From Alphaproteobacteria bacterium MarineAlpha5_Bin7 (lineage in GTDB: Bacteria; Pseudomonadota; Alphaproteobacteria; HIMB59; GCA-002718135), in NCBI GenBank assembly GCA_002938195.1, contig PTKX01000009.1, positions 1 to 39,826 of the forward strand: DNA of 39,826 nt. Reading direction: 5' to 3'. A program made the translations under genes and the position numbers. The notes below the pieces were generated by a model that was not told the DNA's origin, did no database searches, and saw only the letters and a list, made by a program, of their open reading frames with translations. Shown here piece after piece: positions 171 through 20,827 of the stretch. The stretch's first letter is position 1. Each line of letters opens with the position of its first letter.

Positions 171-998
171 ATGTCTAGAAAAAAATTAACAGTCTATGAT
201 TATCTACAATGTAAAGGAAAAAGACAACTAAGCGTTATCTTTGTGCATAATGCAGATGAAGCACGGGCGGCTGAAGAAGCTGGCATAGATATGATTTGTA
301 CATCTCATGACGCACCTCAATTTGGAATTTATAATAGTTTTGATGAGTTGAAGAGAATTAGAGAAGCGGCACCTACTTGTTTTATGCAATCTGGTACAGC
401 AAGTAATATTGCTTCTGAATATGATGCGATGAAAGTATCGCACAAATATTTAGAAATAGGAGCGGATGTAATTTATGGAGGTAATTGGAGTTATAAGATT
501 ATTAGAGGTTTAAGAGACGAAAACATTCCAATTAATAGTCATGTTGGTTTAGTGCCAGGTAAGGCGACTTGGATTGGAGGTTTTAGAGCTATTGGAAAAA
601 CGGCCGATGAAGCTGCCGGAGTTTTAAAACACACTTTAGAACTTCAAGAAGCAGGAGCAATAGGTGTTGAATTAGAGGTTGTTCCCCCAAAAGTTGCAGA
701 AGTAATAACAAAAAAAGTTGAAATAATGACTTTATCGATGGGCAGTGGATCAGGTTGTGATGGTCAATATTTATTCGCAAATGATGTTCTTGGCTATACA
801 GAAGGTCACATCCCAAGACATGCTAGAATATATAAAGATTTTAAAAAAGAATATGCTAGATTACAAGAAGAAAGAGTTAATGCTTTTAAGGAGTTTCATA
901 AAGATACAACAGAAAAAAATTTTAATGATCCAAAAATTACTGTCGGAATTGAAGATAAAGAATTTGAAAAATTTTTAACACTTATAGAAAAAATTTAA
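171..998 (+). CDS. Divergent PanB-like (ketopantoate hydroxymethyltransferase family) protein, copy 1
   Basis: Family-like segments: GLVPGKATWIGGFRAIGKTADEA, GAIGVELEVVPPKVAEVITKK, GSGSGCDGQYLFANDVLGYTEGHIPRHARIYKDF; starts 2 nt after the ABC ATPase stop. Confidence 0.8.
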   Translation: MSRKKLTVYDYLQCKGKRQLSVIFVHNADEARAAEEAGIDMICTSHDAPQFGIYNSFDELKRIREAAPTCFMQSGTASNIASEYDAMKVSHKYLEIGADVIYGGNWSYKIIRGLRDENIPINSHVGLVPGKATWIGGFRAIGKTADEAAGVLKHTLELQEAGAIGVELEVVPPKVAEVITKKVEIMTLSMGSGSGCDGQYLFANDVLGYTEGHIPRHARIYKDFKKEYARLQEERVNAFKEFHKDTTEKNFNDPKITVGIEDKEFEKFLTLIEKI

Positions 999-2122: not shown

Positions 2123-3058
2123 ATGATGATTACTGATTCTCAAATTGAGCAATATAATAAAGAAGGCTACACGATCGTTGAAAATGTATTTTCAGAAGAT
2201 GAACTTTTGCCAGTTTTAGGAGAATTTGAAGAAATCGTTGATCAATTTGCTGAGAAAGCTTTTAAAGCTGGCAAAATTAAAGATAAACACTCTGATGAAA
2301 ATGTTTTTAGAAGATTAGCTTTATTAGAAAAAAATTTTAAAGGATCATCAGTTTTAATTCATCATAAAGGAGAACTAAAACCACAACTTGCGAAGCTGTG
2401 GGCTTCAGAAAAGCTGCTTAATATAGTTGAAAATTGGGTTGGCAAAGATATATCCGGACACCCAGTTTGGAACATCAGATCTAAAACACCTCAAACTGTT
2501 CGAATGACAGTGCCTTGGCATCAAGACTCAGCTTACTTAGCGGAAGGTGCAGAAAAAACTATTCAACCAGCTGCATGGATCCCTTTTTTAGATGTAAACA
2601 AAAATAACGGTTGTATGCAAGTATTAAAGGGCGGACATAAACCGGAAAGAGTTTTAGATCATAAACTAGAAAAAAAAGCAGGAGTGAAAGACTCTTGGTA
2701 CCTATACATAGAGGAAAAAAATATTCCAGAAGAAGACATTATAACCTGCGAAATGAAAGCTGGATCGGTGTTATTTTTGCACCAACTTGTCCCTCATCGT
2801 TCTTTAGAAAATTACTCAGATGATGTTAGGTGGAGTGTAGATTTGCGTTTTCAAAATCCTAAAGATGAAGCTGGATTTCATACAGGATTAATAGATCCTA
2901 TAATTATGAGAAAATCCGATGATCCTTCGTATAGAGCTGATTGGGTCAACTGGTTTAAAGGTTTAGAAGAGCAACATACAAAATTTAGAGGTAAATCTGA
3001 TAAAGATGAGTTTGATTCTACCATACAAGGATCTTGGTTAGACCGGTGGGACAAATAA
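2123..3058 (+). CDS. Phytanoyl-CoA dioxygenase (PhyH) family Fe(II)/2-oxoglutarate oxygenase
   Basis: HQD facial-triad motif (VPWHQDSAYL), distal His (LHQLVPHRSLENYS) and Arg (VRWSVDLRFQ). Confidence 0.87.
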   Translation: MMITDSQIEQYNKEGYTIVENVFSEDELLPVLGEFEEIVDQFAEKAFKAGKIKDKHSDENVFRRLALLEKNFKGSSVLIHHKGELKPQLAKLWASEKLLNIVENWVGKDISGHPVWNIRSKTPQTVRMTVPWHQDSAYLAEGAEKTIQPAAWIPFLDVNKNNGCMQVLKGGHKPERVLDHKLEKKAGVKDSWYLYIEEKNIPEEDIITCEMKAGSVLFLHQLVPHRSLENYSDDVRWSVDLRFQNPKDEAGFHTGLIDPIIMRKSDDPSYRADWVNWFKGLEEQHTKFRGKSDKDEFDSTIQGSWLDRWDK

Positions 3059-3063
3059 TCTCT

Positions 3064-3384
3064 TTATAAATTTATATATAATTTATTATCATCAACTTTT
3101 ACTTGATATGTCTTTAAGTCTATACAGGCTGGAGGGCTTTTGGCTTTACCTGATTTAATGTCAAATATTCCTTGATGCATTGGACATTCAATCTCTCCAT
3201 TCATGACCAAACCGTCTTCTAAATGAAATTCTTCATGTGTACAATTACCATCGGTTGCGTAATAACCATCTTCCAATCTATAAATACAGTAGGTATCATT
3301 TTCATGATCAAATCTTTTTAAATCTTCAACTTCAATACTATCTGCCTCACAAACATAAATCCAATTTTCATTTGTATCTGTCAC
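3064..3384 (-). CDS. Rieske [2Fe-2S] ferredoxin, MocE-like
   Basis: Rieske motifs CTH...CPMHQGIFDIKSGKAKSPP; ~106 aa soluble domain. Confidence 0.9.
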   Translation of the reverse strand: MTDTNENWIYVCEADSIEVEDLKRFDHENDTYCIYRLEDGYYATDGNCTHEEFHLEDGLVMNGEIECPMHQGIFDIKSGKAKSPPACIDLKTYQVKVDDNKLYINL

Positions 3385-3443
3385 TTTATTCCTCCCAATA
3401 ATATTTTATATTTATTAATTAGGTATTAAAAAAAATAAATCAA

Positions 3444-4664
3444 TTATATTTTTTGTAATTTAATATTTTTATCAATTATTTTATTAATATCAATTATCTC
3501 TTGATTCTTTATTTTTATTCCACTTATTCGAATATCCTTACCAATTTTTGGTCCCTTTGAAACTCCGCATGCACCCATAATAATATTTTTTTTTATAAAG
3601 AAAAATATTATTCCTTCATCTAGATTATTTCCACGAGATACTTTTTGATCATAGTCATTGCAGATACCTGTTAATTGCAAGTTTAAATCATATTGATCCG
3701 ACCACATCCAAGGAATTTCTTCATAATTTTTCTTTTGATTAATTATATTTTTACCAGCATTGATTCCATGATCTTGTGCATGTTTCCATGACTCTAGTCT
3801 CATATAAGAATTATAAATTGGATGAAAAAAATTAGATACATCTCCAGCAGCATAAACATTATCTCTAGAGGTTTCACAGTATTCGTTGGTAACAACTCCA
3901 TTATCAATATTAATATCTGAAGAATTGAGAAAATCAGTATTGGGCAAAGCGCCAATTCCAACAATTATTATATCAACTTCAATTTTCTCATTGTTACTAA
4001 GATTAATTTGATACTGTTGATCTTTTTTTCTAGCACTTTTAAGACTAGTGTTTAAAAATATTTTTACACCTGACTGTGAATGTTTTTCGTAAACAAGTCT
4101 AGATATTTCTTCAGGAATAATTCTGCCCATTAATTGAGCGCTTGACTCTACAAGTGTTATATTCTTTTCTAACTTGGACATAGAAGAAGCAATTTCAAGG
4201 CCAATAAAACCCCCTCCAACTATTAAAATATTTTTAATTTTTTTTACTTTATCAATAATTTTTTTACATTCATCTATATTTCTTAGATAAAATATTTCAT
4301 TCTGATTTAGCCCCTCTATATTTAAAATTCTATTTTTACTTCCTGATGCTATTAATAATTTATTGTAAGAATAATTTTTATCACCCGTAAAAATTAATTT
4401 TTCTTTAAAATCTATTTTTTCTACCTCAGTATTAGGAAGAAAGTTTATATTATTTTCATTATAAAACTCTTCTTTATAAAATAAACAATCATCTATTTTT
4501 TTTTCACTTGTTAACAATTGTTTTGAAAGTGGAGGTCTCTCATAAGGCAGATAATCTTCATTTGAAAATATTGATAAATTATATGACTTATCACTATCTT
4601 TAATTGTTTTTGAGGCATTAGCAGCAGTCTGTCCACCACCTATAATAATAATTTCTTTAGACAC
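3444..4664 (-). CDS. FAD-dependent ferredoxin--NAD(P) reductase (rhodocoxin/putidaredoxin reductase type; MocF-like role)
   Basis: GGGQTAANA dinucleotide motif, second Rossmann ILIVGGGFIGLEIAS, FAD motif VYAAGDVSNF. Confidence 0.88.
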   Translation of the reverse strand: MSKEIIIIGGGQTAANASKTIKDSDKSYNLSIFSNEDYLPYERPPLSKQLLTSEKKIDDCLFYKEEFYNENNINFLPNTEVEKIDFKEKLIFTGDKNYSYNKLLIASGSKNRILNIEGLNQNEIFYLRNIDECKKIIDKVKKIKNILIVGGGFIGLEIASSMSKLEKNITLVESSAQLMGRIIPEEISRLVYEKHSQSGVKIFLNTSLKSARKKDQQYQINLSNNEKIEVDIIIVGIGALPNTDFLNSSDINIDNGVVTNEYCETSRDNVYAAGDVSNFFHPIYNSYMRLESWKHAQDHGINAGKNIINQKKNYEEIPWMWSDQYDLNLQLTGICNDYDQKVSRGNNLDEGIIFFFIKKNIIMGACGVSKGPKIGKDIRISGIKIKNQEIIDINKIIDKNIKLQKI

Positions 4665-4673
4665 TAAATATTC

Positions 4674-5663
4674 TTAATGATTATTAGGAATTGTAGTTTT
4701 AAAATATTCCTTAGGATTTGCAGCCTGCTTAATAACAGTTGGCAAAATTTGTTTATAAAAAGAAAACAAACTCGGGAAAGGTGCCGGTAGTTGATTTTTA
4801 ATATTTTTATGGAGCTTTTGAAGATTGTAAGATGGCACTGACGGAAACATATGATGTTCTAAATGATATTCCATATGCCAATATAAAAAGCTTAATATTG
4901 GATTAATTTTAACGCTATAAGTACTTTTTCTATGATCCTTATTATCAAAGGCTGCTCCAAGATGTTGAGTTATATTTACAGCGAACCAAATTGGCTTGCC
5001 GTAGTATTGTGGTAAAATAATATATAAAATGGGAAGAAAAGATCCATAGTAGACAGAAATTAGAATTACAATTAACCAAATCAAAATGTATAGTCTTGAG
5101 TTCCAAAGAATTTTTTTCTTTTCTGAGTCTGGTGCTGAAATTTCTACTACTGGTGAAAAAAATCCAAACGCATGTTTTAATACCTCAAATTTAATTAACC
5201 TATGAGGATATAGTAATGCACTAAAAGGAATATAGTTCAGAAAGAACCATAATAATTCTGTAGGTCTAGATACTTGAATTTCATGGTCATAATCTCCTTC
5301 AGTTTGAAGTGTATTAGTATGATGAAAAGTGTGACTCCACCTCCATCTAAAACCTTCGAAATCACTCATAAATGAACTTATGTGATAAAAAAATTCATTA
5401 ATTTTTCTTGTTTTAAAAGCTGTTCTGTGAACAGTTTCATGCCAATTAGAAACACTGAAAGCATAAATGGTTCCATAGATAAAAAACCAAAATACAGTCC
5501 ACCAAGTCCCCCATGTTATGTATGCAAAGTAGCCGGACACAAATAAAGAGAAAAAATAAATAAAAAAATGAAGTAAACCAGGCCAATCTTTTCTTTTGGA
5601 AAGATCTTTTAATTTTTTTCTATCTATTGTTGGTTTGTACCAGTTAGCTAAATCTATATGCAT
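4674..5663 (-). CDS. Fatty-acid-desaturase/MocD-family membrane oxygenase, copy 2
   Basis: Histidine boxes HETVH, HTFHH, HLEHH; TQH motif; paralogous to neighbouring ORF. Confidence 0.88.
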   Translation of the reverse strand: MHIDLANWYKPTIDRKKLKDLSKRKDWPGLLHFFIYFFSLFVSGYFAYITWGTWWTVFWFFIYGTIYAFSVSNWHETVHRTAFKTRKINEFFYHISSFMSDFEGFRWRWSHTFHHTNTLQTEGDYDHEIQVSRPTELLWFFLNYIPFSALLYPHRLIKFEVLKHAFGFFSPVVEISAPDSEKKKILWNSRLYILIWLIVILISVYYGSFLPILYIILPQYYGKPIWFAVNITQHLGAAFDNKDHRKSTYSVKINPILSFLYWHMEYHLEHHMFPSVPSYNLQKLHKNIKNQLPAPFPSLFSFYKQILPTVIKQAANPKEYFKTTIPNNH

Positions 5664-5675
5664 AATATAAAAAAC

Positions 5676-6707
5676 CTATGAAATTGGAATTTCTCTTTTA
5701 GGTATAAAATTTGGATCGTATGCTTGCTTAATAATAGAAGGTATAATATCTTTATACGCACTAATTAATCCGTTATTAGCTTTTGGCAATTGGTCTTTAA
5801 TAATTTCATGCAATTTAGGAAGATTGTACCATGGAACCATAGGAAACATATGATGTTCAATATGATATTCTAGTTTTACATAAAGCCAGCTGAGAATAGG
5901 GTTAAGATAAACTGATCTAGTATTTATTCTATGATCTTTTACATTAAACGCAAGACCTGCGTGTTGCGTCAGGCCACATAAGAAGAAGAGAGTATTTCCG
6001 TAGAAAGTGGGAAGTAGGAAAAAAAGTACTGGTAATATTGTTTGAAAGTAAAAAGAAAAAGCGATTATAGATAACCATATTAACATATGAATTCTTGCTG
6101 ATAAAAGAACTTTCCATTGATGTTCTTTTGGGACACATTCATTAATAACAGGAGTCAAAATACCTAAAGAGTTTTTTAATGTCTCAGCTAAATAAGATTG
6201 ATGTATCCAAAGAAGGGGACCAAAAGGTATGAAGCTTACAAAATATTTAAATAATTTGCTTGGTCTGTCTACTTGAATTTCAAAATCAACAGGTTCTGCA
6301 GTATGAAGAGTATAACTATGATGCAGTGTATGTGACCATCTCCATCTTACAGGTTCAAAATTTGTCATAAATGAAAATACGTATTGAAAAAAATCATTTA
6401 ACCATCTTTGTTTAAATAATGTTCTATGTCTGCTTTCATGATCATAAGCTCCACTAAATGAGTAAATTGTTCCATAAAGCCAGAACCATAAAATTGTCCA
6501 CCACGTACCCCAAGTGATATAAGCCATAAAACCACAAAAGATGAGGGCAATAAAATACATTGATACGTAATAAATGCCTGGCAAAGATCTTTTTTTACAT
6601 AATTCTTTTAAAACTTTTTTATCAATTTCTGCTTTCCACCAAACCTCACCACCTAATTTTTCTGTTAGATCTGCGGAAACATTGTCGTCAATTATTACTT
6701 TGCTCAT
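5676..6707 (-). CDS. Fatty-acid-desaturase/MocD-family membrane oxygenase, copy 3 (start adjusted from ORF-track 6758)
   Basis: Boxes HESRH, HTLHH, HIEHHMFPMVPWYNLPKLHE; TQHAGLAFNVKDHR. An internal ATG at 6707 (MSKVIIDD...) is preceded by a GAG-type SD and a TATAAT-like hexamer, so it is the more plausible start. Confidence 0.85.
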   Translation of the reverse strand: MSKVIIDDNVSADLTEKLGGEVWWKAEIDKKVLKELCKKRSLPGIYYVSMYFIALIFCGFMAYITWGTWWTILWFWLYGTIYSFSGAYDHESRHRTLFKQRWLNDFFQYVFSFMTNFEPVRWRWSHTLHHSYTLHTAEPVDFEIQVDRPSKLFKYFVSFIPFGPLLWIHQSYLAETLKNSLGILTPVINECVPKEHQWKVLLSARIHMLIWLSIIAFSFYFQTILPVLFFLLPTFYGNTLFFLCGLTQHAGLAFNVKDHRINTRSVYLNPILSWLYVKLEYHIEHHMFPMVPWYNLPKLHEIIKDQLPKANNGLISAYKDIIPSIIKQAYDPNFIPKREIPIS

Positions 6708-6879: not shown

Positions 6880-7704
6880 ATGAAAAAAAAATTGACTGTT
6901 TTTGACCTTTTACAATTGAAGGGTAAAAGACAAATTCATGAAGTTTATGTTAATAATGTAGAAGAAGCTATAGCAGCTGAAGAGGCTGGGATTGATATAA
7001 TAGTCTCTGCTTATGGTATGCCTCATCATGGAATTTACGGCACACTAGAGGATTTAAAAAGGATAAGAGAAGCAGCACCAAATACTCATTTAATGAGCGC
7101 TGCTCCAGAGAGATCTTTTGCCTCTGCTGATGAGGCAGTCAGAGCTGCTTACAAATTATTATCAATGGGTTGTGACTCTTTTTATACCAATAATAGTTCT
7201 CATATAATTAAAACTTTAAGACGAGAAAAAGTTCCTGTTGTAAGTCACATCGGCTTAATACCGGGTCATGTTAATTGGATTGGAGGATATAGAGCTATTG
7301 GCAAAACATCAGAAGAGGCAATTGAAGTTCTAAGACATGCCATGGAGCTAGACGATGCTGGGGCCATTGGCCTTGAAGTTGAAGTTGTTCCACCCAAAGT
7401 TGCAAAAATTATTACAAAAAAAGTAAAATTAATGACAGTTTCTATGGGTAGTGGCTCAACCTGTGATGCACAATACTTATTTTCGCAAGATGTTTTGGGA
7501 TATAATATTGGACATGTTCCAAGACATTCAAGAATTTATAGAAATTTTAAAAAAGAATTTGAAAGACTTCATAAAGAAAGAGTTGAAGCTTATAAAGAAT
7601 TCATATCTGATACTGAGAACAAAACTTTTAATGATCCAAAAATTACTGTTTCAATAAATGATAAAGAATTTGAATCTTTCTTAAATCTTGCAGAAAAAAT
7701 TTAG
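6880..7704 (+). CDS. Divergent PanB-like protein, copy 2
   Basis: Clearly paralogous to ORF 171..998; HIGLIPGHVNWIGGYRAIGKTSEEA, EVEVVPPKVAKIITKK, GSGSTCDAQYLFSQDVLGYNIGHVPRHSRIYRNF. Confidence 0.8.
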   Translation: MKKKLTVFDLLQLKGKRQIHEVYVNNVEEAIAAEEAGIDIIVSAYGMPHHGIYGTLEDLKRIREAAPNTHLMSAAPERSFASADEAVRAAYKLLSMGCDSFYTNNSSHIIKTLRREKVPVVSHIGLIPGHVNWIGGYRAIGKTSEEAIEVLRHAMELDDAGAIGLEVEVVPPKVAKIITKKVKLMTVSMGSGSTCDAQYLFSQDVLGYNIGHVPRHSRIYRNFKKEFERLHKERVEAYKEFISDTENKTFNDPKITVSINDKEFESFLNLAEKI

Positions 7705-7723: not shown

Positions 7724-8752
7724 ATGTCTAACTCCATTCGCAATAGTTTTTTAGGACTAGGTCCTATGAGCAATAATGTTATTGAAGCAATAGATGAGTA
7801 TTCTTTTGAAGAGAAAAAGGCTATTATGATTATATGTTCAAGAAATCAAATTGAGTGTAAGAGCTTAGGTTCTGGGTATGTTAATGATTATTCCACTGAA
7901 GATTTTAGCTCTATTATCAATCATAAAAAAAAAAGAAATCCTTATATTTATTTATGCAGAGACCATTCTGGACCTTTTGTAAGAAATACACCTAAAGATA
8001 ATTTAAAAGATGAGTTGAATGATACAAAAACTAGTATGCAGGTTGACATAGAGTGTGATTTTGATTTGATACATGTAGATACATCCTTATGCGGAAGTCA
8101 AAAATATGAAATTGCTGAAGAGTTAATAAATCATTGTAATAGTTTAGATAAAAAAAAAGAATCTCTCTTTTTTGAATATGGATCAGAAGAACATGGAGTT
8201 GCTCTTAATAGAGAAAATTTTAAAAGAGATTTAGATTTTTTGTCAAAATTTAATAATATTGAATTTCTCGTAGGCACTACTGGGAGTTTAACTAAAGAGA
8301 TATATCAAGCTGGTGAGTTTAATAATGAAGACTCATTATTTATGAGCAATCTAGCTGAGGAATATAATATCCGCATTAAGGATCATAATTGTGATTATCT
8401 TGATTTTGCTGATGTAAAATTGAGAAAAATATCAGGTATTGGGGCATTGAATGTAGCTCCAAGTTTTGGAGCTTTTGAGTCTAAGATTTTGATTAATATT
8501 GCATCCTCTTTACAGCTTTTTAAATTAATTGAAAATTTTAAAAATGTAGTTTTGCAGAAAAAAAAATGGATCAAATGGTGTTATGATAACTCAAATAATA
8601 ATATTAAATTTTTTAGCTCTGCACATTATTTTTTTATGCATGAATCATATTTTGAATTAGTAGAACAAATTAAAAAGCATAGAGATTTAAATAAAGAAAC
8701 TATTAATTTTTTAAAAAAATATATTAATATATATTTGCAAGATATAGATTGA
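7724..8752 (+). CDS. Divergent GatZ/KbaZ-like (tagatose-bisphosphate aldolase non-catalytic subunit family) TIM-barrel protein
   Basis: Motifs in GatZ order: RNQIE (cf. TSNQ), RDHSGP (cf. GDHLGP), LIHVDTSL (cf. IHLDAS), YGSEEHG (cf. IGTEVP), KDHNCDYLD...GIGALNVAPSFGAFES (cf. EAHSTDYQ...KVGPALTFALRE). Confidence 0.6.
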   Translation: MSNSIRNSFLGLGPMSNNVIEAIDEYSFEEKKAIMIICSRNQIECKSLGSGYVNDYSTEDFSSIINHKKKRNPYIYLCRDHSGPFVRNTPKDNLKDELNDTKTSMQVDIECDFDLIHVDTSLCGSQKYEIAEELINHCNSLDKKKESLFFEYGSEEHGVALNRENFKRDLDFLSKFNNIEFLVGTTGSLTKEIYQAGEFNNEDSLFMSNLAEEYNIRIKDHNCDYLDFADVKLRKISGIGALNVAPSFGAFESKILINIASSLQLFKLIENFKNVVLQKKKWIKWCYDNSNNNIKFFSSAHYFFMHESYFELVEQIKKHRDLNKETINFLKKYINIYLQDID

Positions 8753-8756
8753 TCCT

Positions 8757-9758
8757 CTACTCCATAAGTTTTTTTGAAAAATTAACTATATTTTCCATAC
8801 TTGGTATTGACTCTTTCTCCAAGTTAGGCGCAACTGGCACAGGAGTATCTTCTGCTGTATATCGAATTACAGGTTTTAATAAATCTCCAAAACAATGTTC
8901 AAAAATTATTGAAGTTATTTCGCTTGCTACACTTGAAGTATAATGACCTTCACTTACGACTAGAGCACGCTTATTCTTCTTTACAGATTTAATTATATTT
9001 TCTTTATCAAGAGGGTTTAATGATCTAAGATCAATAACTTCTGCATTAATATTACTTTTCTTTAATTCTATTGCAGCTTCTTCAGCTATATTAACCATTC
9101 TAGAATAAGAGATTATGGTAATATCATTGCCTTCAAGTCTAATAGATGCCTTACCAAATTCAGCATCAATATTTTTTTTATCTAGAGATCCTTTTGAGTT
9201 ATAAAGCATTTTATGTTCTAAGAAGACTACAGGATCATCCAGCTGAATTGACTTTCTTAAGAGATGATAAGCGTCGCATGGTTTTGAAGGCATTACCAGA
9301 TATAATCCGGGAATGTGCATAATCCAAGACTCTAGACTTTGAGAATGTTGTGCCCCACCAGATCTACCAGTTCCACCTTGTGCTCTTAATACCATTGGAA
9401 CACTAGTTTGCCCTCCAAACATATATCTAATTTTGGCAGCTTGATTAGCAATTTGATCTAAAGACATTCCAAAAAAATCTACATACATTAATTCTGCAAT
9501 CGGTTTTAAACCAGTCATTGCAGCACCAACACTAGCACCAATAATAGAAGGCTCTGAGATTGGTGTATCAATAACTCTATTTTCACCAAAAATATCTAAT
9601 AATCCTTTAGTTGCCCCGTAAGCGCCTCCGTATTTTGCTACATCTTCACCCATTATAATAACATTCTTATTTTCATTCATTTCATCATGCATGGCTAAAC
9701 GCAAAGCATCTCTATAAGTAATTTCCTCAAAATAATCTTTTTCTATATCCGACATCAA
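8757..9758 (-). CDS. 2-oxoacid/acetoin dehydrogenase E1 component beta subunit
   Basis: GEDVAKYGGAYGATKGL, EPSIIGASVGAAMTGLKPIAELMYVDFFG, RAQGGTGRSGGAQHSQSLE; AcoB/PdhB-type. Confidence 0.9.
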   Translation of the reverse strand: MMSDIEKDYFEEITYRDALRLAMHDEMNENKNVIIMGEDVAKYGGAYGATKGLLDIFGENRVIDTPISEPSIIGASVGAAMTGLKPIAELMYVDFFGMSLDQIANQAAKIRYMFGGQTSVPMVLRAQGGTGRSGGAQHSQSLESWIMHIPGLYLVMPSKPCDAYHLLRKSIQLDDPVVFLEHKMLYNSKGSLDKKNIDAEFGKASIRLEGNDITIISYSRMVNIAEEAAIELKKSNINAEVIDLRSLNPLDKENIIKSVKKNKRALVVSEGHYTSSVASEITSIIFEHCFGDLLKPVIRYTAEDTPVPVAPNLEKESIPSMENIVNFSKKLME

Positions 9759-10756
9759 TTACCAATTATTTTTTTTATTCTTGTTTTAATGCTCTCAGGA
9801 TTTTTATTACTATAAACATCCTTAAAAATTTCATTTGTATCATTTAAAGAAGCATTAATAGCGAAACTAATAGCCTCATCCATTTCATTTGAGATTTCAT
9901 TATCCAGTTTATCAATATTATCTTTTGATAAAATATTTTTATCAATTAATTTTTTTTTCGCAAATTTTATAGGATCTCTTTCTCTGTATAATTTTTCCTC
10001 ATCTATATCTCTATATGGACTTTTATCCATTCTAGCATGACCATAAAATCTATAACATTCAATTTCTATAAACCCCGGTTTTCCAGAACGAGCGTCATCA
10101 ATAATAGGCTTGATTTTGTAATATGCCTCTTCAACATCAAGAGTGTTTACCGAGCAAGCATTTAGTCCAAAAGATTTCGCTCTACCAGTAAAATCTTTTA
10201 CTGCAACCGCTTTGTCTATTTTTGTACCCATTCCATATTGGTTATTAATACAACAAAAGACTACAGGGAGATCCCACAGAGCCGCCATGTTCATACTTTC
10301 ATAAAGTATTCCTTGTTGTAGTGCGCCATCACCAAAAAAAGCTACAGAAATACTAGGTTTAGAAAAATATTTATAACTCATTCCTGCTCCAACCACTGTA
10401 GGTATGCCACCGCCAACAATAGCATTAGCACCTAAATGTCCTACACTCATATCTGCAATATGCATGGAACCACCTTTACCTTTACAATAACCATCTTTTT
10501 TGCCTGCAATTTCAGCCATCATTTTATTTGGATCTCCGCCTCTTGCTAAAAATATGCCATGACCACGATGGTGTGTTGTGAATGTATCATTATCATTCAT
10601 TGCTTTACTAATACAAGTTGGGCCAAGTTCTTCTCCAATGGATAAATGCAGCATAGAGCCAGCAGTTTCTCCTTTAATAAATAACTCTGAAACTCTCTCT
10701 TCAAACGTTCTTATACGTTTCATTGTTTTATAAAAATCTTCAAGAAAGGTATTCAT
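9755..10756 (-). CDS. 2-oxoacid/acetoin dehydrogenase E1 component alpha subunit
   Basis: TPP motif GDGALQQG...NNQYGMGT, GGSMHIADMSVGHLGANAIVGGGIP; overlaps the E1-beta start by 4 nt. Confidence 0.92.
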   Translation of the reverse strand: MNTFLEDFYKTMKRIRTFEERVSELFIKGETAGSMLHLSIGEELGPTCISKAMNDNDTFTTHHRGHGIFLARGGDPNKMMAEIAGKKDGYCKGKGGSMHIADMSVGHLGANAIVGGGIPTVVGAGMSYKYFSKPSISVAFFGDGALQQGILYESMNMAALWDLPVVFCCINNQYGMGTKIDKAVAVKDFTGRAKSFGLNACSVNTLDVEEAYYKIKPIIDDARSGKPGFIEIECYRFYGHARMDKSPYRDIDEEKLYRERDPIKFAKKKLIDKNILSKDNIDKLDNEISNEMDEAISFAINASLNDTNEIFKDVYSNKNPESIKTRIKKIIGN

Positions 10757-11873: not shown

Positions 11874-12848
11874 ATGACTGATAGTGATTATATTATTGAT
11901 GATAAAGGAAATTGGAGACCAGCTAAAAAATTAGAGTTTGATCCAATTTTTGTTTGGCCTCCTCGTCCGATACAATTTTTAAAATATTTATTTTCTTTCC
12001 CTGGTTATATATGGCCTTGGAACATATTCTATATAGCTATAGCTGTTATTATATATCTATTCTTTCAACCAGCGATTTCGGAATGTAAAAATTTTTCTTT
12101 TAGTTGGATTTCTATAGTTTTTCTTCGTAATTTATTTTTGGTTTTTGTATATGCAGGTTTAATGCACTTAAGATTTTATATTTTTAAATATCAAGGAGAA
12201 AAGTATCAATACAATACAAAGCCTTTGGGAACTGGAAATAAGTTCTGGCATTTTGGAAGTCAAACTAGGGAAAATATGTTTTGGACTCTTTGTAGCGCTG
12301 TGCCAATATGGTCGGCTTATGAAGTAATTTTTTTATGGGGATATGCTAATAATATATTTCCTTATATTGATTTTAATACTAATCCCATTTATTTTTGCGT
12401 GTTATTTTTATTGCTACCAGGCTGGCAAATGGTACATTTTTATTTTTCTCATCGTATCACTCATTGGAAGCCTTTATATAAATGGGTTCATTATTTACAT
12501 CATAGAAATGTTAATACTGGTCCTTGGTCCGGTCTTTCTATGCATCCTGTTGAGCATATAATATATTTTAGCACTGTGTTAATTCATTTTATCATACCAT
12601 CACATCCTCTGCATATGATTTTTCATATTCAAAGGACAGGTCTTGCGGCCATCCATGGACATTCTGGATTTGATAAAATTATGCTTAATAAACATAGAGC
12701 TAAATTACCGCATGCTTCGTATTTCCATTATTTACATCACAAGTATTTTGAATGTAATTATGGAGAATTATGGATGCCTTTAGATAAATGGTTTGGATCT
12801 TTTCATAATGGCTCAAAAGAAGATGATGAAAGGCTTGTAAATAAATAG
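11874..12848 (+). CDS. Sterol desaturase / fatty acid hydroxylase superfamily membrane protein
   Basis: Histidine clusters HFYFSHRITHW, HYLHHRN, HASYFHYLHHKYFECNYG; several TM segments. Confidence 0.87.
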   Translation: MTDSDYIIDDKGNWRPAKKLEFDPIFVWPPRPIQFLKYLFSFPGYIWPWNIFYIAIAVIIYLFFQPAISECKNFSFSWISIVFLRNLFLVFVYAGLMHLRFYIFKYQGEKYQYNTKPLGTGNKFWHFGSQTRENMFWTLCSAVPIWSAYEVIFLWGYANNIFPYIDFNTNPIYFCVLFLLLPGWQMVHFYFSHRITHWKPLYKWVHYLHHRNVNTGPWSGLSMHPVEHIIYFSTVLIHFIIPSHPLHMIFHIQRTGLAAIHGHSGFDKIMLNKHRAKLPHASYFHYLHHKYFECNYGELWMPLDKWFGSFHNGSKEDDERLVNK

Positions 12849-12888: not shown

Positions 12889-13806
12889 ATGATTTTATCA
12901 TGTGGCGAAAATGTAATTGATTTTATTCCAACTAGTTATAAAAAAAATTATTATAAAGCTTGTATTGGAGGTTCGCCCCTAAATACTGCTTTAGCTTTAG
13001 GTCGTTTAAACCAACCTGTATATTTTTTTTCACGAGTTTCTAATGATTTTTTTGGAAAAAAAATAGTTAATTTTTTAAAACAAAATAATGTAAACACTTC
13101 ACTTTTACAAAGAACTGAGGATCTTACAACCGTTGCAATTGTAAGTGAAAAAAAGAATCCTCAATTTTCTTTTCATGCAGCTCAGACTGCAGATCGAAAT
13201 TTAAAAGATTATCAATTTAACAAAACTCTTTATAAAAAAGTTTTATTAGCTCATTTTGGATCAATTTCATTAGTGCTTCCACCAGGTTCAGAGACATATT
13301 TCAAATTAATGAAAAAATTACAAAATAAATGTATCATATCAATAGATCCCAATATTAGAGAAAATTTAATTTCTAACAAAAATTCCTTTATTAAACGTTT
13401 TAATAAATTTTTAAATTTAGCAGATATAATTAAATTAAGTGAAGAAGATATGAAGTTTATTAACAATAGAAAAAATAATGATTTTATAATAAAAAATTGG
13501 ATAAAAAAAAATAAAGTATCAATAGTAATTTTAACAAAAGGATCTTTAGGAGCTTCACTTTATACTGATAATTATAAGATAAATGTTAAAGCAAAGAAAA
13601 TAAAAGTTATTGATACAGTGGGAGCTGGAGATAGTTTTCAAGCAGGGATTATTTCTTGGTTAAATAATCATAATTTATTAAAAGAAAAAAAATTTCTTAA
13701 ATTAAAAAAGAATCATTGGAAATCTTGTTTAGAACATGCATCAAAAATTGCCTCACATTGTTGTAAAAATGAAGGATGTGATCCTCCATGGGCAAAGGAA
13801 GTATAA
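12889..13806 (+). CDS. PfkB-family carbohydrate kinase (fructokinase-like)
   Basis: GGSPLNTALALGRL near N-terminus; DTVGAGDSFQAGI catalytic signature. Confidence 0.9.
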   Translation: MILSCGENVIDFIPTSYKKNYYKACIGGSPLNTALALGRLNQPVYFFSRVSNDFFGKKIVNFLKQNNVNTSLLQRTEDLTTVAIVSEKKNPQFSFHAAQTADRNLKDYQFNKTLYKKVLLAHFGSISLVLPPGSETYFKLMKKLQNKCIISIDPNIRENLISNKNSFIKRFNKFLNLADIIKLSEEDMKFINNRKNNDFIIKNWIKKNKVSIVILTKGSLGASLYTDNYKINVKAKKIKVIDTVGAGDSFQAGIISWLNNHNLLKEKKFLKLKKNHWKSCLEHASKIASHCCKNEGCDPPWAKEV

Positions 13807-14172: not shown

Positions 14173-15129
14173 ATGAAAAAATATTTTATAATATTGTCTT
14201 CTTTTGTAATTGCGTTTTCATCTTTTTCAGCTAGTGCTTTAAAAGTTGGCGCTATCTATATGGACTCTCAGGGTTTTTATGGTGGTGTAGCAAAGGGTAT
14301 TAAAACAGGAGCTGGAGACTTAGGTGTTGAGCTTATTGGTAATAACTCTCAAGGCGATGTTACAAAGGAATCTGAATTTATTGATCAATTGATTGCGGCA
14401 GGTGTAGAGGCAGTTATAATGTCTCCAGTATCTACAGAAGCTTCAGTAGCAGCTGTGGAAAGAATAAGAGAGGCTGGTATTCCAGTTGTCTGTTATAACA
14501 CTTGTTTAAAAGATGAGGACTCAGAAAGATTGATCAGCGCGCTTGTAACAACAAGCCAAACTGCACTTGGTATTCACATTGGTCGTTTAGCAGGTGAGTG
14601 GGCTATTAAAGCAGAAATGGAACTAAAAATAGGTATTCATAACTGTAATAGATATGAAGCTTGTCAACAAAGAGAAGATGGTTTCATAGCTGGATTAAAA
14701 GAAGTTGGTGCAAAATTCGAAGTTGTAAATAACCAAGAGGCTTTTACTCATGACAAAGCTACACAAATTGGAACTGATATGCTTATTGCAAATCCAGAAA
14801 TCAATTTAATGTATGCTGCTAATGAAGGTGGAACTGCTGGAGCTGTTAATGCTGTTATTGCAGCAGGTCAAGTAGGTCAAACTTATGTTATGGGCACAGA
14901 TACAACAACGGAGCTTATAGAAATGGTTCAACAGGGAGATGTTTTACTTGCTGTTAATTCTCAATTCCCACAAGAAATGGGAGCTGGTGCCATGGAGTAT
15001 GCAATTAAAGCTATAAATGGCGAAGCAATTGGCGAGTTTGTTCAATTGATACCAACTAAAGTTTATACATCACTTGATAAGTTTGCTACTGCAAAGTGGC
15101 TAGTTGATCATGCTGATGGTATTCCGTAA
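14173..15129 (+). CDS. Sugar ABC transporter substrate-binding protein (RbsB/periplasmic-binding type 1 fold)
   Basis: N-terminal signal peptide, QLIAAGVEAVIMSPVS, REAGIPVVCYNT; strong AGGAGG RBS; followed by permease and ATPase. Confidence 0.9.
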   Translation: MKKYFIILSSFVIAFSSFSASALKVGAIYMDSQGFYGGVAKGIKTGAGDLGVELIGNNSQGDVTKESEFIDQLIAAGVEAVIMSPVSTEASVAAVERIREAGIPVVCYNTCLKDEDSERLISALVTTSQTALGIHIGRLAGEWAIKAEMELKIGIHNCNRYEACQQREDGFIAGLKEVGAKFEVVNNQEAFTHDKATQIGTDMLIANPEINLMYAANEGGTAGAVNAVIAAGQVGQTYVMGTDTTTELIEMVQQGDVLLAVNSQFPQEMGAGAMEYAIKAINGEAIGEFVQLIPTKVYTSLDKFATAKWLVDHADGIP

Positions 15130-15147
15130 AGTGAAAATTATTTAAAT

Positions 15148-15186
15148 AAAAAAGGGACATCTAGTTCGTTAAATGTCCCTTTTTTT
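15148..15186. terminator. Intra-operon stem-loop with T-tract
   Basis: aaaaaagggacat (15148-15160) pairs perfectly with atgtccctttttt (15173-15185), 12-nt loop; T-run follows the GC part of the stem. Confidence 0.8.
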
Positions 15187-15198
15187 AAAGGAAATTAA

Positions 15199-16182
15199 AT
15201 GACTAATTCTAATTCAAAGCCAAAGACTAGTGTAAGTAATATTCATGAACTGGGTCTTCTAGTAGCCTGTGTTTTAGTTTTATTAATTTTTAGTTTTACA
15301 GCTCCAAATTTTTTTACTGAGAGAAATTTATTAAGTATTTTAAGAAGTGCTTCGTATGTAGGATTAGTAGCATTTCCTATGACTTTTGTCCTAATCAGCA
15401 GAGAAATTGATATTAGCGTTGGACCCTCAGTTGCTTATTCTGGAGTTTTATTTGCTTGCTTAATAAAATGGTACGGAATTAGTTATCCATTAGCAACGAT
15501 TATAGTTTTATTATGGGGGCTGGTGTTAGGGTACGTCGTAGGTATTGTTAGAACTAAACTTTTTGTTCCTACATTTATAACTACATTAGCACTTTGGAGT
15601 GCACTTAGAGGAATGGCACTTTGGCAAACTGATGGCATGCCTGTAATGATAGGCAGTAAAGCTTTTAGACATTTCTTTGGAGGAGATTTCTTAGGATTTC
15701 CAACTGTGACATGGATTATGTTAGTTGTATTTATTATATTTTGGTTTCTTAGTACATATTCTGTTTTGGGTACAAATATTTATGCTGTTGGAGGCAATCC
15801 AAAAGCTGCAAGAAGTGTTGGAATTAATGTAGACGGAATTAAAATTATCACTCTAACAGCAACTAGTTTTTTTTCTGCAGTGGTTGGAATTTTGTTTGTT
15901 GCAAGAGTTTCATCTGGAAATTCCACAGTTGGAGAAGGAATGGAATTCGATGTCATTGCTGCAGTTGTTGTAGGAGGAACTGCTCTTGGTGGAGCGGTAG
16001 GAAGGATGACCGGAACATTGTTAGGTGTTCTATTTATTGCAATGATTGGAAACGGTTTAGTTCATTGGGGTATCGACCCTGATCTTAATAAAGTTGTGCG
16101 AGGCATTATTATTTTTTTAGCAGTAGTAATTAACTCAAATCTAACTCTTAAATCTAATACAGGACCAAAGGGAGAAGATTAG
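15199..16182 (+). CDS. Sugar ABC transporter permease (RbsC/FrcC type)
   Basis: Multiple TM segments; VGGNPKAARSVGINV and AAVVVGGTALGGAVGRMTGTLLGVL family motifs. Confidence 0.9.
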   Translation: MTNSNSKPKTSVSNIHELGLLVACVLVLLIFSFTAPNFFTERNLLSILRSASYVGLVAFPMTFVLISREIDISVGPSVAYSGVLFACLIKWYGISYPLATIIVLLWGLVLGYVVGIVRTKLFVPTFITTLALWSALRGMALWQTDGMPVMIGSKAFRHFFGGDFLGFPTVTWIMLVVFIIFWFLSTYSVLGTNIYAVGGNPKAARSVGINVDGIKIITLTATSFFSAVVGILFVARVSSGNSTVGEGMEFDVIAAVVVGGTALGGAVGRMTGTLLGVLFIAMIGNGLVHWGIDPDLNKVVRGIIIFLAVVINSNLTLKSNTGPKGED

Positions 16183-16922
16183 TGTCAATTTTGCAATTAA
16201 ACAATATTTCAAAAAATTTTGGAGCAATTGTAGCTTTGGATAAAGTTACTTTAAATTTAGAACAGGGTGAAGTTTTGGGTTTGATGGGAGATAATGGAGC
16301 AGGAAAATCTACTTTGATCAAAATTATTGCAGGAAATTTTAAACAATCTGAAGGGGAAATATTATTTGAAAATAATAATGTTGAATTTAATAAACCTATG
16401 GATGCAAGGAACAAAGGCATTGAAGTAGTTTATCAAGATTTAGCATTATGTGATAATTTAACTGCAGCATCTAATATTTATCTTACAAGAGAACTAAAGA
16501 AAAAATTTGGACCTTTCTCTATAATTGATTTTAAACGCATGTTTGAATCTGCAAAAAATATTTTTGCTGAGTTAAAATCAGAAACATTACCTAATGAAAC
16601 TGTTAAAATGATGTCTGGTGGACAAAGACAGGCAGTTGCTCTAGCTAGGACCAAATTATCTAAAGCAAAAGTTGTATTACTTGACGAACCTACTGCAGCA
16701 ATTAGTGTAAGACAAGTAGCTGAGGTCTTAGAATTAATTAGGCAATTAAAAGCTCAAGGTATATCAGTAGTTATTATTAGTCATAGAATGCCTGATGTTT
16801 TTGCAGTAAGTGATAGAATAGCTGTTTTAAGAAGAGGCAAGCTAGTTGCTAATAAATTTGCTAAAGAAAGTTCGGCAGAAGAAGTTACAGCTTTAATTAC
16901 AGGAGCTTTAGAGACGGCTTGA
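16182..16922 (+). CDS. Sugar ABC transporter ATP-binding protein, single-domain (FrcA-like), GTG start
   Basis: Walker A GDNGAGKST, signature MSGGQRQAV, Walker B VVLLDEPTAA; start overlaps the permease stop by 1 nt. Confidence 0.92.
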   Translation: MSILQLNNISKNFGAIVALDKVTLNLEQGEVLGLMGDNGAGKSTLIKIIAGNFKQSEGEILFENNNVEFNKPMDARNKGIEVVYQDLALCDNLTAASNIYLTRELKKKFGPFSIIDFKRMFESAKNIFAELKSETLPNETVKMMSGGQRQAVALARTKLSKAKVVLLDEPTAAISVRQVAEVLELIRQLKAQGISVVIISHRMPDVFAVSDRIAVLRRGKLVANKFAKESSAEEVTALITGALETA

Positions 16923-16944: not shown

Positions 16945-17994
16945 GTGAAAATAGAAAAAGAGCATATCTGCAATATCAATAATCAAGAAATTATTAAAGT
17001 TAAATTTGTTAATGATAACAATTACTCAGTAGAATTTTTTAATTATGGAGGATATTTTCATAAGATTATAATTCCCTATAAAAATAATCCAAAAAAATAT
17101 GAAGATGTTATTCTTGGCTATGAAAATTTTAAAGAATATCTTACCGATAAAGATTATATTAATGCTCTAGTTGGAAGAGTGTGCGGCAGGATTAGTTACG
17201 CAAAATTTTTACTTAATGATAAGGAATATAAATTAAAACAAAATGATGGAATACATCATATTCATGGAGGGGAAAAAGGATTTACCCAAAATATTTGGAA
17301 AATAAATAATATTGGACAAAAAAATAATAAATTATTTTGTGAGCTTTATTATCACTCAAAACATTTGGAAGAAGGATATCCAGGCAATGTTGACTGTACA
17401 GCTCAATATAGTTTTAATAATGAAAATGAAATTGAAATAAAATTTAGCGCCGTAACAGACCAGGATACAATAATAAACTTAACTAATCATAATTATTGGA
17501 ATTTTCATGGTCATAATGATTATTATCAAAAAATTGATGATCATTTTCTAAAAATTAATAGTGACTATGTCTGTGAAGTAGATAAAAAGCAAATTCCTTC
17601 AGGAAAATTAATTAATGTTAATAAAACTAAATATGATCTAAGAGAAATTAAAAAAATAGATAAATTTATATTAGGTCAAGATGGAATTGATCATTGTTAC
17701 ACTATTGATGACAATAAAAAATTATTAGAAGTATCAACCATTTACAGTAATTACACCAAAATGGGTATGATTTTTTCAACAGATCAGCCAGGTTTACAAC
17801 TTTATACTGGCAATATGATGGCAGATAAATATTTAGGAAAGTATAATAAAAAATATGGATTACAACACGGAATTTGTTTTGAAGCTCAGATATATCCAGA
17901 TGCAATTAATCAACCAAATTTTAAAAGCCCTATATTAAGACCGGGGGAAAAGTACTCATCAAGAATTATTATGAAGTTAAAAAATAATTTCTAG
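16945..17994 (+). CDS. galM: Aldose 1-epimerase (GTG start)
   Basis: GRISYAKFLLNDKEYKLKQNDGIHHIHGG, NLTNHNYWNFHG, LQLYTGN. Confidence 0.9.
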   Translation: MKIEKEHICNINNQEIIKVKFVNDNNYSVEFFNYGGYFHKIIIPYKNNPKKYEDVILGYENFKEYLTDKDYINALVGRVCGRISYAKFLLNDKEYKLKQNDGIHHIHGGEKGFTQNIWKINNIGQKNNKLFCELYYHSKHLEEGYPGNVDCTAQYSFNNENEIEIKFSAVTDQDTIINLTNHNYWNFHGHNDYYQKIDDHFLKINSDYVCEVDKKQIPSGKLINVNKTKYDLREIKKIDKFILGQDGIDHCYTIDDNKKLLEVSTIYSNYTKMGMIFSTDQPGLQLYTGNMMADKYLGKYNKKYGLQHGICFEAQIYPDAINQPNFKSPILRPGEKYSSRIIMKLKNNF

Positions 17995-18026
17995 CAAGCT
18001 TATTTTTTTCAATCTATAATAACATA

Positions 18027-19511
18027 ATGTTTATAGGAATAGATTTAGGAACCTCATCAGTAAAAACAATTTTAATTGATGCAAATCAAACTTCATTATC
18101 AACTCATATTGAGAATATTGAATTATTTAATCCAAGTGTAGGGTATTATGAGCAAGATCCTGAAAGTTGGTACGATGCAACAATAAAATGTTTTAATAAA
18201 ATTAAAACAGAGAAACCAAAAGAATTTTCAGCAGTTAAAGCAATAGGGATTTCAGGACAAATGCATGGAGCAACATTAATTGATAAAAATAATAAAGTTC
18301 TGCGTCCGTGTATTCTTTGGAATGATACTAGATCATTTAAACAATGTACTTATATGGAAAATACATGTTCTTCTTTAAGAAAAGAATCTGGAAATATTGC
18401 TATGCCTGGATTTACAGCTCCAAAAATATTATGGGTTAAGGAAAATGAAAAAGAAATTTTTAACAAAATTCATAAAGTCTTATTACCAAAAGATTACCTT
18501 CGATTTAAATTAACAAATACTTTCTATACTGATATGTCAGATGCATCAGGAACTTTGTGGTTAAATGTAAAAGAGAGACGTTGGTCAAAGACTTTATTAA
18601 ATTTAACTGATTTATCAGAAGACCATATGCCAAGATTAGTAGAAGGAAATCAAAAAACGGCTATAGTAGATAAAAAACTAGCTAATGAATTAGGGTTTAA
18701 AAATGATGTTTTAATTGCTGGTGGAGCAGGAGATCAGGCTGCTGGCGCAACTGGTGCAGGAGTAATAAAATCTAATCAATCGGTAATTTCTCTTGGAACA
18801 TCTGGAGTATATTTTTCACCAACAAATGAATTTATATCTAATACTAAAGACGCAGTTCATTCATTTTGTCATTGTATACCCAAAACATGGCATCATATGT
18901 CAGTGATGTTAAGTGCAACAAATTGTTTAGATTGGATAAGTAAAATTTGTGGATTAAATATTTCAGAAACAATGAAGAAGATAGAAAATTTCTCAAATTA
19001 TAAATTTGAATTAAATTCTACTCCATATTTTTTACCTTATTTAAGTGGCGAGCGAACACCTCATAACAATGCGTATCTTAGAGGATCTTTTCATTTACTT
19101 AATACTTCTACAGATACTGATTCATTAATTTATTCTGTTCTCGAGGGTATTAGTTTTGGAATCAAAGATGGATATGAATCTACTCACTCTGTTAGCCCAA
19201 AAAGTGAGGAAATATACTTGATTGGAGGGGGCTCAAAAAATATATTTTGGGCTAACTTAATTTCATCAACATTGAATCAATCTATTTTAATAGGTGAAGA
19301 TGCTAATTTGGGACCAGCTTTAGGAGTTGCTAGACTAGCCATGCTTTCTACAGAAGATTTCTCACTAAATGAAGTGATTAAAAGTATGAAAATAAAAAAA
19401 GAATGTTCTATAGATAATAATTTATGCGAAAGGTTAGATAAAAGGTATAAAGTTTGGAAACAAATTGTTAATATTAATAAACCTATAGCTAGTAAATTAA
19501 TGGAGAATTAA
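18027..19511 (+). CDS. xylB: Xylulokinase (FGGY family)
   Basis: GIDLGTSSVKTILID, GISGQMHGATLIDKNNKVLRPCILWNDTRS, GGAGDQAAGATGAG, ERTPHNNAYLRGSF. Confidence 0.92.
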   Translation: MFIGIDLGTSSVKTILIDANQTSLSTHIENIELFNPSVGYYEQDPESWYDATIKCFNKIKTEKPKEFSAVKAIGISGQMHGATLIDKNNKVLRPCILWNDTRSFKQCTYMENTCSSLRKESGNIAMPGFTAPKILWVKENEKEIFNKIHKVLLPKDYLRFKLTNTFYTDMSDASGTLWLNVKERRWSKTLLNLTDLSEDHMPRLVEGNQKTAIVDKKLANELGFKNDVLIAGGAGDQAAGATGAGVIKSNQSVISLGTSGVYFSPTNEFISNTKDAVHSFCHCIPKTWHHMSVMLSATNCLDWISKICGLNISETMKKIENFSNYKFELNSTPYFLPYLSGERTPHNNAYLRGSFHLLNTSTDTDSLIYSVLEGISFGIKDGYESTHSVSPKSEEIYLIGGGSKNIFWANLISSTLNQSILIGEDANLGPALGVARLAMLSTEDFSLNEVIKSMKIKKECSIDNNLCERLDKRYKVWKQIVNINKPIASKLMEN

Positions 19512-19513
19512 TT

Positions 19514-20827
19514 ATGAGTGAATACTTCAAAGATATAAATCATATAAAATTTGAAGGTCCGGAAAGTGAAAATCCGTTAAGTTTTAAATTTTATAATGAA
19601 GATCAAGTAGTTTTAGGAAAAACTATGAAGGAGCATTTTCGCTTTGCTACTTGCTATTGGCATACATTTACCTGGCCAGGATTAGATCCTTTTGGAGGAC
19701 CAACTCTTGAAAGACCATGGATGCAAGTAGGCGATCCTCTTAAAATGGCTGAGATTAAGCTTGATGCAGCTTTTGATTTTTTTAATAAAATCAAAACTCC
19801 TTTTTTTTGCTTTCACGATAGAGATATTGCACCTGAAGGCAATACATATAAAGAAACAAAAAAAAATTTAGATCACATAGTCGAGTTAATGGAAAAGAAA
19901 ATGGAAGAAACCAAGATGAAATTATTATGGGGTACTGCAAATGCATTTTCTCATAAAAGATATATGTCTGGAGCTTCAACAAATCCTGATCCTGAAGTAT
20001 TTGCATTTGTGGCTACTCAAGTTAAAAATTGTATGGATATTACAAAAAGATTAGGAGGCGAAAATTATGTTTTGTGGGGAGGAAGAGAAGGTTATGAAAC
20101 TATATTAAATACTAACATGAAATTAGAAATGGATAATTTATCAAGATTTTTAGAATTAGTAGTAGATTATAAACATAAAATTGGCTTTAAAGGTTTAATA
20201 CTTCTAGAACCAAAGCCACATGAGCCAACTAAGCACCAATATGATTTTGATGCTGCATCTTGCTTAGCCCTTATACGCAAAGCTGGATTAGAGAAAGAAG
20301 TAAAACTAAATATTGAAGTTAATCATGCAACTTTATCTGGACACAACTTCGAGCATGAAATTGCTTATGCCATTGCAAATAATGCGCTTGGCAGTATTGA
20401 TATAAATAGAGGAGATACTATGCTGGGATGGGATACAGATCAATTTCCAAATAATCCAGCGGACTTAATTTTGGCATTTTACCATATATTTTCTAATGGC
20501 GGTCTTAAAAATGGAGGTTTTAATTTTGATGCAAAAATTAGAAGACAATCTATTGATCCTGAAGATTTATTTTATGCTCATATTGGAGCAATGGATGTTT
20601 GCGCTAAAACTCTGATTGCTACAGAAAAATTAATCAATGAAGGCATTCTTAGTAAACATATTGATGAAAGATATTCAAATTGGTATAAAGATTTAGGAAA
20701 TTTTATCCATGATAAAAGTACAAACTTAGAAAAAATTTCTCAGTTAGTAGTAGAAAATAAAATTAATCCAAAGCCAAAATCGGGCCAACAAGAGTTGTTA
20801 GAAAATATTTTAAATAAATATTTATAA
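19514..20827 (+). CDS. xylA: Xylose isomerase
   Basis: FRFATCYWHTF, FFCFHDRDIAPEG, YVLWGGREGYETILNTNMKLE, LLEPKPHEPTKHQYDFD. Confidence 0.96.
   Translation: MSEYFKDINHIKFEGPESENPLSFKFYNEDQVVLGKTMKEHFRFATCYWHTFTWPGLDPFGGPTLERPWMQVGDPLKMAEIKLDAAFDFFNKIKTPFFCFHDRDIAPEGNTYKETKKNLDHIVELMEKKMEETKMKLLWGTANAFSHKRYMSGASTNPDPEVFAFVATQVKNCMDITKRLGGENYVLWGGREGYETILNTNMKLEMDNLSRFLELVVDYKHKIGFKGLILLEPKPHEPTKHQYDFDAASCLALIRKAGLEKEVKLNIEVNHATLSGHNFEHEIAYAIANNALGSIDINRGDTMLGWDTDQFPNNPADLILAFYHIFSNGGLKNGGFNFDAKIRRQSIDPEDLFYAHIGAMDVCAKTLIATEKLINEGILSKHIDERYSNWYKDLGNFIHDKSTNLEKISQLVVENKINPKPKSGQQELLENILNKYL

Follow-up and report, generated by a model that had tools for sequence, protein, structure and literature searches.

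The window analysed here, a stretch of 39,826 nucleotides (positions 1 to 39,826 of contig PTKX01000009.1) from Alphaproteobacteria bacterium MarineAlpha5_Bin7 of the order HIMB59, carries a minus-strand operon (6707-3064) that encodes in succession two desaturase-fold oxygenases, a flavin adenine dinucleotide (FAD) ferredoxin reductase and a Rieske ferredoxin, separated by intergenic gaps of 12, 9 and 59 bp. With moderate confidence, these genes are read as the core of a system, similar to MocDEF, that oxidatively O-demethylates small hydrophilic methyl ethers, such as methylated pentoses, hexoses, deoxyhexoses or cyclitols. The two PanB-like genes of the window (171-998 and 6880-7704) belong to this MocD-like oxygenase system, a link newly recognised here. 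An earlier note on the same DNA had described the four genes of the operon as a MocDEF-like module with a duplicated oxygenase; their coordinates and transcription order both match on re-check, and the comparison with MocDEF is supported by the homology of the components to those of a Sinorhizobium meliloti pSymA locus (L110; 38% to MocD, 50% for the ferredoxin to MocE and 30% for the reductase to MocF), by the oxygenase tree and by gene context. "Duplicated" holds for the operon itself and is an understatement for the genome, since a third paralog lies at 1004-2011 and a fourth on another contig (C5). The coordinates of that note left out this third paralog, both PanB-like genes, a PhyH gene (2123-3058) and a FA_hydroxylase gene (11874-12848).

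Oxygenases related to MocD

The three oxygenases of the window, all on the minus strand, score well over the Pfam FA_desaturase cut-off of 29.7 bits: oxygenase 1 (5676-6707) reaches 114 bits, oxygenase 2 (4674-5663) 110 bits and the third oxygenase (1004-2011) 125 bits, with 37.6, 37.8 and 39.7% identity, respectively, to the MocD of L110. The regulator of that locus scores 763.9 bits against a rhizopine-MocR cut-off of 650 bits, and its MocD is therefore the nearest thing to a reference MocD. For oxygenase 1, an upstream TTG start (6758) is less likely than the ATG at 6707, as ortholog alignments begin at about residue 4. All of 19 homologs compared, the three window proteins included, keep the histidine boxes H90xxxH94, H126xxHH130, H249 and H282xxHH286 unchanged, and chance is excluded as an explanation.

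In a tree of 54 sequences, 27 paralogs of the HIMB59 order, the third window oxygenase among them, form one clade (100/99) adjoining the clade that holds the MocD proteins of rhizobia and Rhodobacterales, and these two clades together are split at 100/98 from a group with an arginine-hydroxylase-like (GntB-like) protein. The MocD clade taken alone is weak (58/20) because of a single Caballeronia row, and rises to 98/99 once that row is removed. Two other paralogs of the order (L062, 8394-9395; L066, 9416-10381) fall in the GntB-like group, and each has its own Rieske and reductase genes. The curated DesA and DesB models give 27-47 bits on the window oxygenases against a cut-off of 500, or 25-47 bits against cut-offs of 475-500 when CrtR is included, and the GntB model 34-45 bits against 380. 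Acyl-lipid desaturases are too distant for reliable placement, and very distant desaturases, whose branches measure 4-7 changes per site, were dropped from the final tree; no DesB-family protein scored over the cut-off in 150 genomes of the phylum, and one match of 211 bits, too distant as well, was also left out. XylM, sought as an outgroup, was not found in two stretches of plasmid pWW0 examined. The phylogeny that the earlier note had called for thus places the oxygenases beside MocD, with the curated desaturase models far under their cut-offs, and leaves the acyl-lipid desaturases themselves unplaceable in the tree. On tree position and low model scores, the oxygenases appear, as far as tested, to be a sister subfamily of MocD and not acyl-lipid desaturases.

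A search of PDB proteins with one oxygenase returned no match, a profile search returned AlkB alone (E 0.013), and the predicted structure (mean predicted local distance difference test score, pLDDT, 85) is matched weakly by solved structures, AlkB among them (Foldseek E 0.05). Beyond this weak similarity of fold, the AlkB-AlkG alkane monooxygenase differs in its alkane substrate and its rubredoxin partner, and has no family-level sequence match to the window oxygenases.

Desaturation or hydroxylation of membrane acyl-lipids, carotenoids or hopanoids would agree with the fold family, with the FA_hydroxylase gene nearby and with the fact that the genome has no other FA_desaturase protein. It is nevertheless very unlikely in view of the model scores and the grouping with MocD, and in relatives the oxygenase genes have sugar transporters and one-carbon (C1) genes as neighbours rather than genes for acyl carriers or carotenoids.

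The source genome (assembly of 1.23 Mb in 42 contigs, 93% complete) encodes four FA_desaturase proteins, all of them MocD-like. Relatives of the same family, compared as single-cell genomes and one metagenome-assembled genome, encode up to seven MocD-like oxygenases, the seven copies being found in a genome of 1.5 Mb.

Ferredoxin and reductase

The MocE-like Rieske ferredoxin (3064-3384, minus strand; Rieske 60 bits) carries the cluster ligands in CTH and CPMH motifs. It scores 126 bits with the NCBIfam MocE model TIGR02377 (cut-off 136.15), and its orthologs in relatives score 135.9 and 136.5. The MocF-like FAD ferredoxin reductase (3444-4664, minus strand; Pyr_redox_2 219 bits, Reductase_C 47 bits) shares the operon of oxygenases 1 and 2. 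Where a genome has several oxygenases, it usually encodes one close and one distant homolog of the Rieske ferredoxin, and a single ferredoxin/reductase pair probably serves the four paralogous oxygenases of the source genome, which would act on different substrates. The distant Rieske ferredoxin (37%) of the source genome lies on contig C27 (L109, 811-6251) with inositol-type genes (Gfo, IolD-like at 48% and IolG-like at 40%) and with no adjoining oxygenase. Of the proteins scanned on either side of the operon in the window, none matched a regulator, whereas L110 has mocR.

PanB-like partner

Both PanB-like proteins of the window are encoded on the plus strand, PanB-like protein 1 at 171-998 (Pfam Pantoate_transf 135 bits) and PanB-like protein 2 at 6880-7704 (136 bits), divergently from oxygenase 1. 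Across 40 genomes of the order (the source genome and 39 relatives, mutually related, so that the observations are not independent), 38 of the 75 PanB-like genes have an oxygenase gene no more than 1.5 kb away, where about 1.1 would be expected, and the numbers of the two genes per genome correlate (rho 0.85). Orthologs of PanB-like protein 1 (81-85%) are found within the oxygenase clusters of relatives, and the divergent pairing of PanB-like protein 2 with oxygenase 1 is conserved.

Operons of soil, freshwater and coastal bacteria give independent support for this link. The order in L110 is mocR, mocD, E, F, PanB-like, purU; D-E-F-PanB-like is found in R. etli and on S. meliloti pSymB, and D-E-F-PanB-like-purU-folD in Mesorhizobium and Agrobacterium (L072, L076). 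Neotabrizicola (L111) has transporter-mocE-mocF-PanB-like-folD-purU-iolG, Rhizobium sp. Kim5 D-E-PanB-like-transporter, and Marivivens and Aestuarium D-E-PanB-like-transporter-inositol dehydrogenase. The gene content of some GC-rich loci was read by tblastn.

The family differs clearly from ketopantoate hydroxymethyltransferase (KPHMT), the PanB enzyme itself. The window proteins score 106.6 and 107 bits with the PanB model TIGR00222, about half of the 207.55-bit cut-off. In PanB, D45, D84 and E114 are Mg2+ ligands, K112 is the lysine that holds the keto acid, and H136 and E181 are catalytic residues, with H123 and E168 as their equivalents in PanB-like protein 2. D84, E114 and K112 are missing from all 36 aligned PanB-like proteins and an aspartate at position 45 is present in three, neither window copy among them; H136 and E181 are kept in 36 of 36. 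The predicted structure of the 6880-7704 product (mean pLDDT 80) matches the KPHMT structures 3vav and 1m3u with a template modeling score (TM-score) of about 0.75-0.77. A separate true PanB is encoded in five of six genomes tested, and none was found in the source genome, at its 93% completeness. Taken together, the residue losses, the fold and the separate true PanB mark the family as an offshoot of PanB, probably with a new role; pantothenate biosynthesis was rejected as the function of these genes on account of the lost residues and the true PanB of relatives.

A more tentative proposal is that the PanB-like protein is a new tetrahydrofolate enzyme, a so far unrecognised fourth part of the moc operon that would convert a hydroxymethyl ether or formaldehyde to 5,10-methylene-tetrahydrofolate with little or no free formaldehyde, and that plankton of the HIMB59/AEGEAN-169 type may have multiplied the module for several methylated sugars. 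In the literature examined on PanB and demethylation, rhizobial methyl-inositol catabolism and oceanic methyl-sugar demethylation, no link between MocD and PanB was found described. Alternatively, the oxygenase might oxidise a C-methyl branch to a hydroxymethyl group, whose carbon the PanB-like protein would then pass to tetrahydrofolate by a retro-aldol reaction. This would mirror the PanB reaction in reverse, in keeping with the retention of H136 and E181 throughout the family, but the metal ligands and the keto-acid lysine of PanB are lost and the studied relative, MocDEF, is needed for the catabolism of an O-methyl compound by rhizobia (PMC10107442), so that such a reaction is improbable.

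Directly behind the 6880-7704 gene lies that of a 342-aa protein (7724-8752), with a sub-threshold GatZ/KbaZ-like match only (14.6 bits) and no counterpart in those clusters of relatives that were examined.

One-carbon genes and sugar context

FolD and PurU convert methylene-tetrahydrofolate to formate. One or both of their genes share an operon with the PanB-like gene in several of the loci named above, which calls for a C1 unit, and plain hydroxylation yields none. This bears on the possibility that the oxygenases catalyse ordinary C-H hydroxylation of sugars, sugar acids or amino acids without any demethylation, the PanB-like protein acting as an aldolase on the product. GntB, to which the window proteins show a weak model match, is an L-arginine hydroxylase of the guanitoxin pathway that belongs to the same fold family and acts on a small hydrophilic compound; a related protein (L164) adjoins a 5-guanidino-2-oxopentanoate decarboxylase and its partner Rieske ferredoxin, and PhyH and Gfo/Idh/MocA genes are close by the oxygenase genes. 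Against these likenesses stand the C1 genes and the strongly supported separation of the GntB-like group in the tree, and C-H hydroxylation alone is considered rather unlikely.

In the HIMB59 order the C1 unit would leave by other routes. Fhs is encoded in 40 of 40 genomes, and on contig C5 the stretch with the fourth oxygenase also carries a third PanB-like gene and, within 10 kb of the oxygenase, FrmA (633 bits, cut-off 544) and FrmB (312 bits, cut-off 282). PurU and FolD genes also accompany N-demethylases, and the removal of a methyl group from a methylated amine or betaine was weighed for that reason. SAR11 bacteria oxidise such methyl groups via tetrahydrofolate (PMC3160333), yet the transporters beside the oxygenases are of ribose type and not of betaine type, and sugar-acid, xylose and inositol genes adjoin them, which leaves N-demethylation highly improbable, the least likely of the readings weighed.

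The ribose-type ATP-binding cassette (ABC) transporter of the window (14173-16922, plus strand; binding protein, permease and ATPase) probably imports the substrate. Three genomes from a single related genus (L045, identical to L052; L046, identical to L130; and L047) carry orthologs with 92% and 91% identity to it directly 3' of the oxygenase-1 ortholog, followed by an ortholog of the window FA_hydroxylase; in L045 the run is oxygenase-substrate-binding protein-permease-ATPase-FA_hydroxylase, the last with 61% identity to that of the window. Transporter orthologs of 67-68% lie nearby in further relatives, and orthologs of oxygenase 1 have 69-83% identity with a transporter adjoining. The argument from sugar transport, which in the earlier note relied on proximity alone, is therefore borne out by synteny. 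The note's proposal of a modified-sugar or cyclitol demethylase or hydroxylase gains from this context and from the kinship with MocD, the substrate and the demethylation chemistry being inferred.

Downstream of the transporter, genes for aldose 1-epimerase (Aldose_epim 232 bits), xylulokinase (XylB 527 bits, cut-off 380) and xylose isomerase (XylA 667 bits, cut-off 533) at 16945-20827 on the plus strand probably form a pentose pathway. From this linkage, oxygenase 1 is perhaps the best candidate for acting on a methylated pentose that would feed the xylose pathway. Relatives' oxygenase genes adjoin ribose-type ABC transporters and Gfo/Idh/MocA dehydrogenase, PhyH and FA_hydroxylase genes, and beside other paralogs are found L-rhamnose mutarotase, gluconolactonases, IlvD/EDD and mandelate-racemase-type dehydratases and a DHDPS-type aldolase, all of sugar or sugar-acid routes. 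The genes vary from paralog to paralog, and different oxygenases therefore probably serve different sugars.

The PhyH-family 2-oxoglutarate oxygenase gene (2123-3058, plus strand; PhyH 96.5 bits) has orthologs of 81-82% that adjoin orthologs of oxygenase 2. The FA_hydroxylase protein of the sterol-desaturase family (11874-12848, plus strand; PF04116 62 bits) is possibly a further terminal oxygenase, and proteins of this fold may form a second class of terminal oxygenases working with the same ferredoxin system. A Bradyrhizobium plasmid locus (L112, 6818-11364) has PanB-like, FA_hydroxylase, Rieske, sugar phosphate isomerase and FAD reductase genes and no MocD. A PfkB kinase gene lies at 12889-13806. 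At 8757-10756 a 2-oxo acid dehydrogenase E1 alpha/beta pair is found, with E2 and E3 not adjoining, and its orthologs (70%) border the oxygenase clusters of L045, L052 and L130. A pair formed by a DUF1326 protein and a PpoB2-type copper chaperone adjoins oxygenase genes in L126 (12895-14336) and L129 (3989-5450).

Proposed mechanism

The ribose-type transporter would import the methylated compound, and electrons would pass from reduced nicotinamide adenine dinucleotide (NADH) through the FAD reductase and the Rieske ferredoxin to the MocD-like membrane di-iron oxygenase, which would hydroxylate the O-methyl carbon to give a hydroxymethyl ether. This ether would break down to the free sugar and a C1 unit at the level of formaldehyde. 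The PanB-like protein may load this unit, taken as the hydroxymethyl ether or as formaldehyde, onto tetrahydrofolate; the condensation of formaldehyde with tetrahydrofolate without an enzyme proceeds too slowly in vivo to provide an effective route (PMC7073904), and a dedicated enzyme is therefore plausible. The C1 unit would finally be oxidised to formate by FolD and Fhs in reverse (PurU in rhizobia) or by FrmA and FrmB.

Several observations weigh against this reading. Identity to MocD is no higher than 38-40%, and the role of the PanB-like protein is argued from synteny and residues. About half of the order's PanB-like genes do not adjoin an oxygenase, and for most MocD homologs found elsewhere in the class, the neighbourhood contains a Rieske gene at best and no PanB-like gene. 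PurU scores over the cut-off in none of the 40 genomes, its matches lying far under it, so that the order does not take the rhizobial route to formate. Most genomes of the order's second family have an oxygenase and a PanB-like gene without a MocE-like ferredoxin; in L060, L061 and other genomes of that family, the oxygenase/PanB-like pair lies near a glutamine-synthetase-like gene.

Relation to known systems and significance

MocDEF, which acts on the rhizopine 3-O-methyl-scyllo-inosamine, shares with the window system a desaturase-fold oxygenase of the sister clade, a Rieske ferredoxin that in the window is MocE-like, a FAD reductase, the PanB-like gene, and a nearby sugar-type transporter with inositol or sugar genes. 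Unlike MocDEF, and besides the modest identity and the missing MocR, the window system has a set of several oxygenase paralogs in each genome beside a single close ferredoxin, the order D-D-F-E and not D-E-F, PanB-like genes on the opposite strand, and FrmA/B or Fhs in place of PurU. Among marine, alga-degrading Flavobacteriia, a P450 oxidatively demethylates 6-O-methyl-D-galactose (PMC10033563). The system proposed here would likewise remove the methyl group of a marine methyl sugar by an oxidation that redox partners drive; the flavobacterial enzyme, however, is a cytochrome P450 and not a membrane di-iron protein, and its reported conserved companion is a zinc alcohol dehydrogenase and not a PanB-like protein.

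The gene set of MarineAlpha5_Bin7, a bacterium with a small genome and in all likelihood a member of the marine plankton, suggests that it lives on methylated sugars and retains the methyl carbon removed from them. To our knowledge, no enzyme has been assigned to the demethylation of methylated sugars in abundant streamlined plankton. If the reading proposed here is true, a relative of the rhizopine enzyme, with up to seven copies in a 1.5-Mb genome, would be a concrete candidate for this demethylase, and its PanB-like partner, if its role is as proposed, would supply the C1 step for the classical moc operon.

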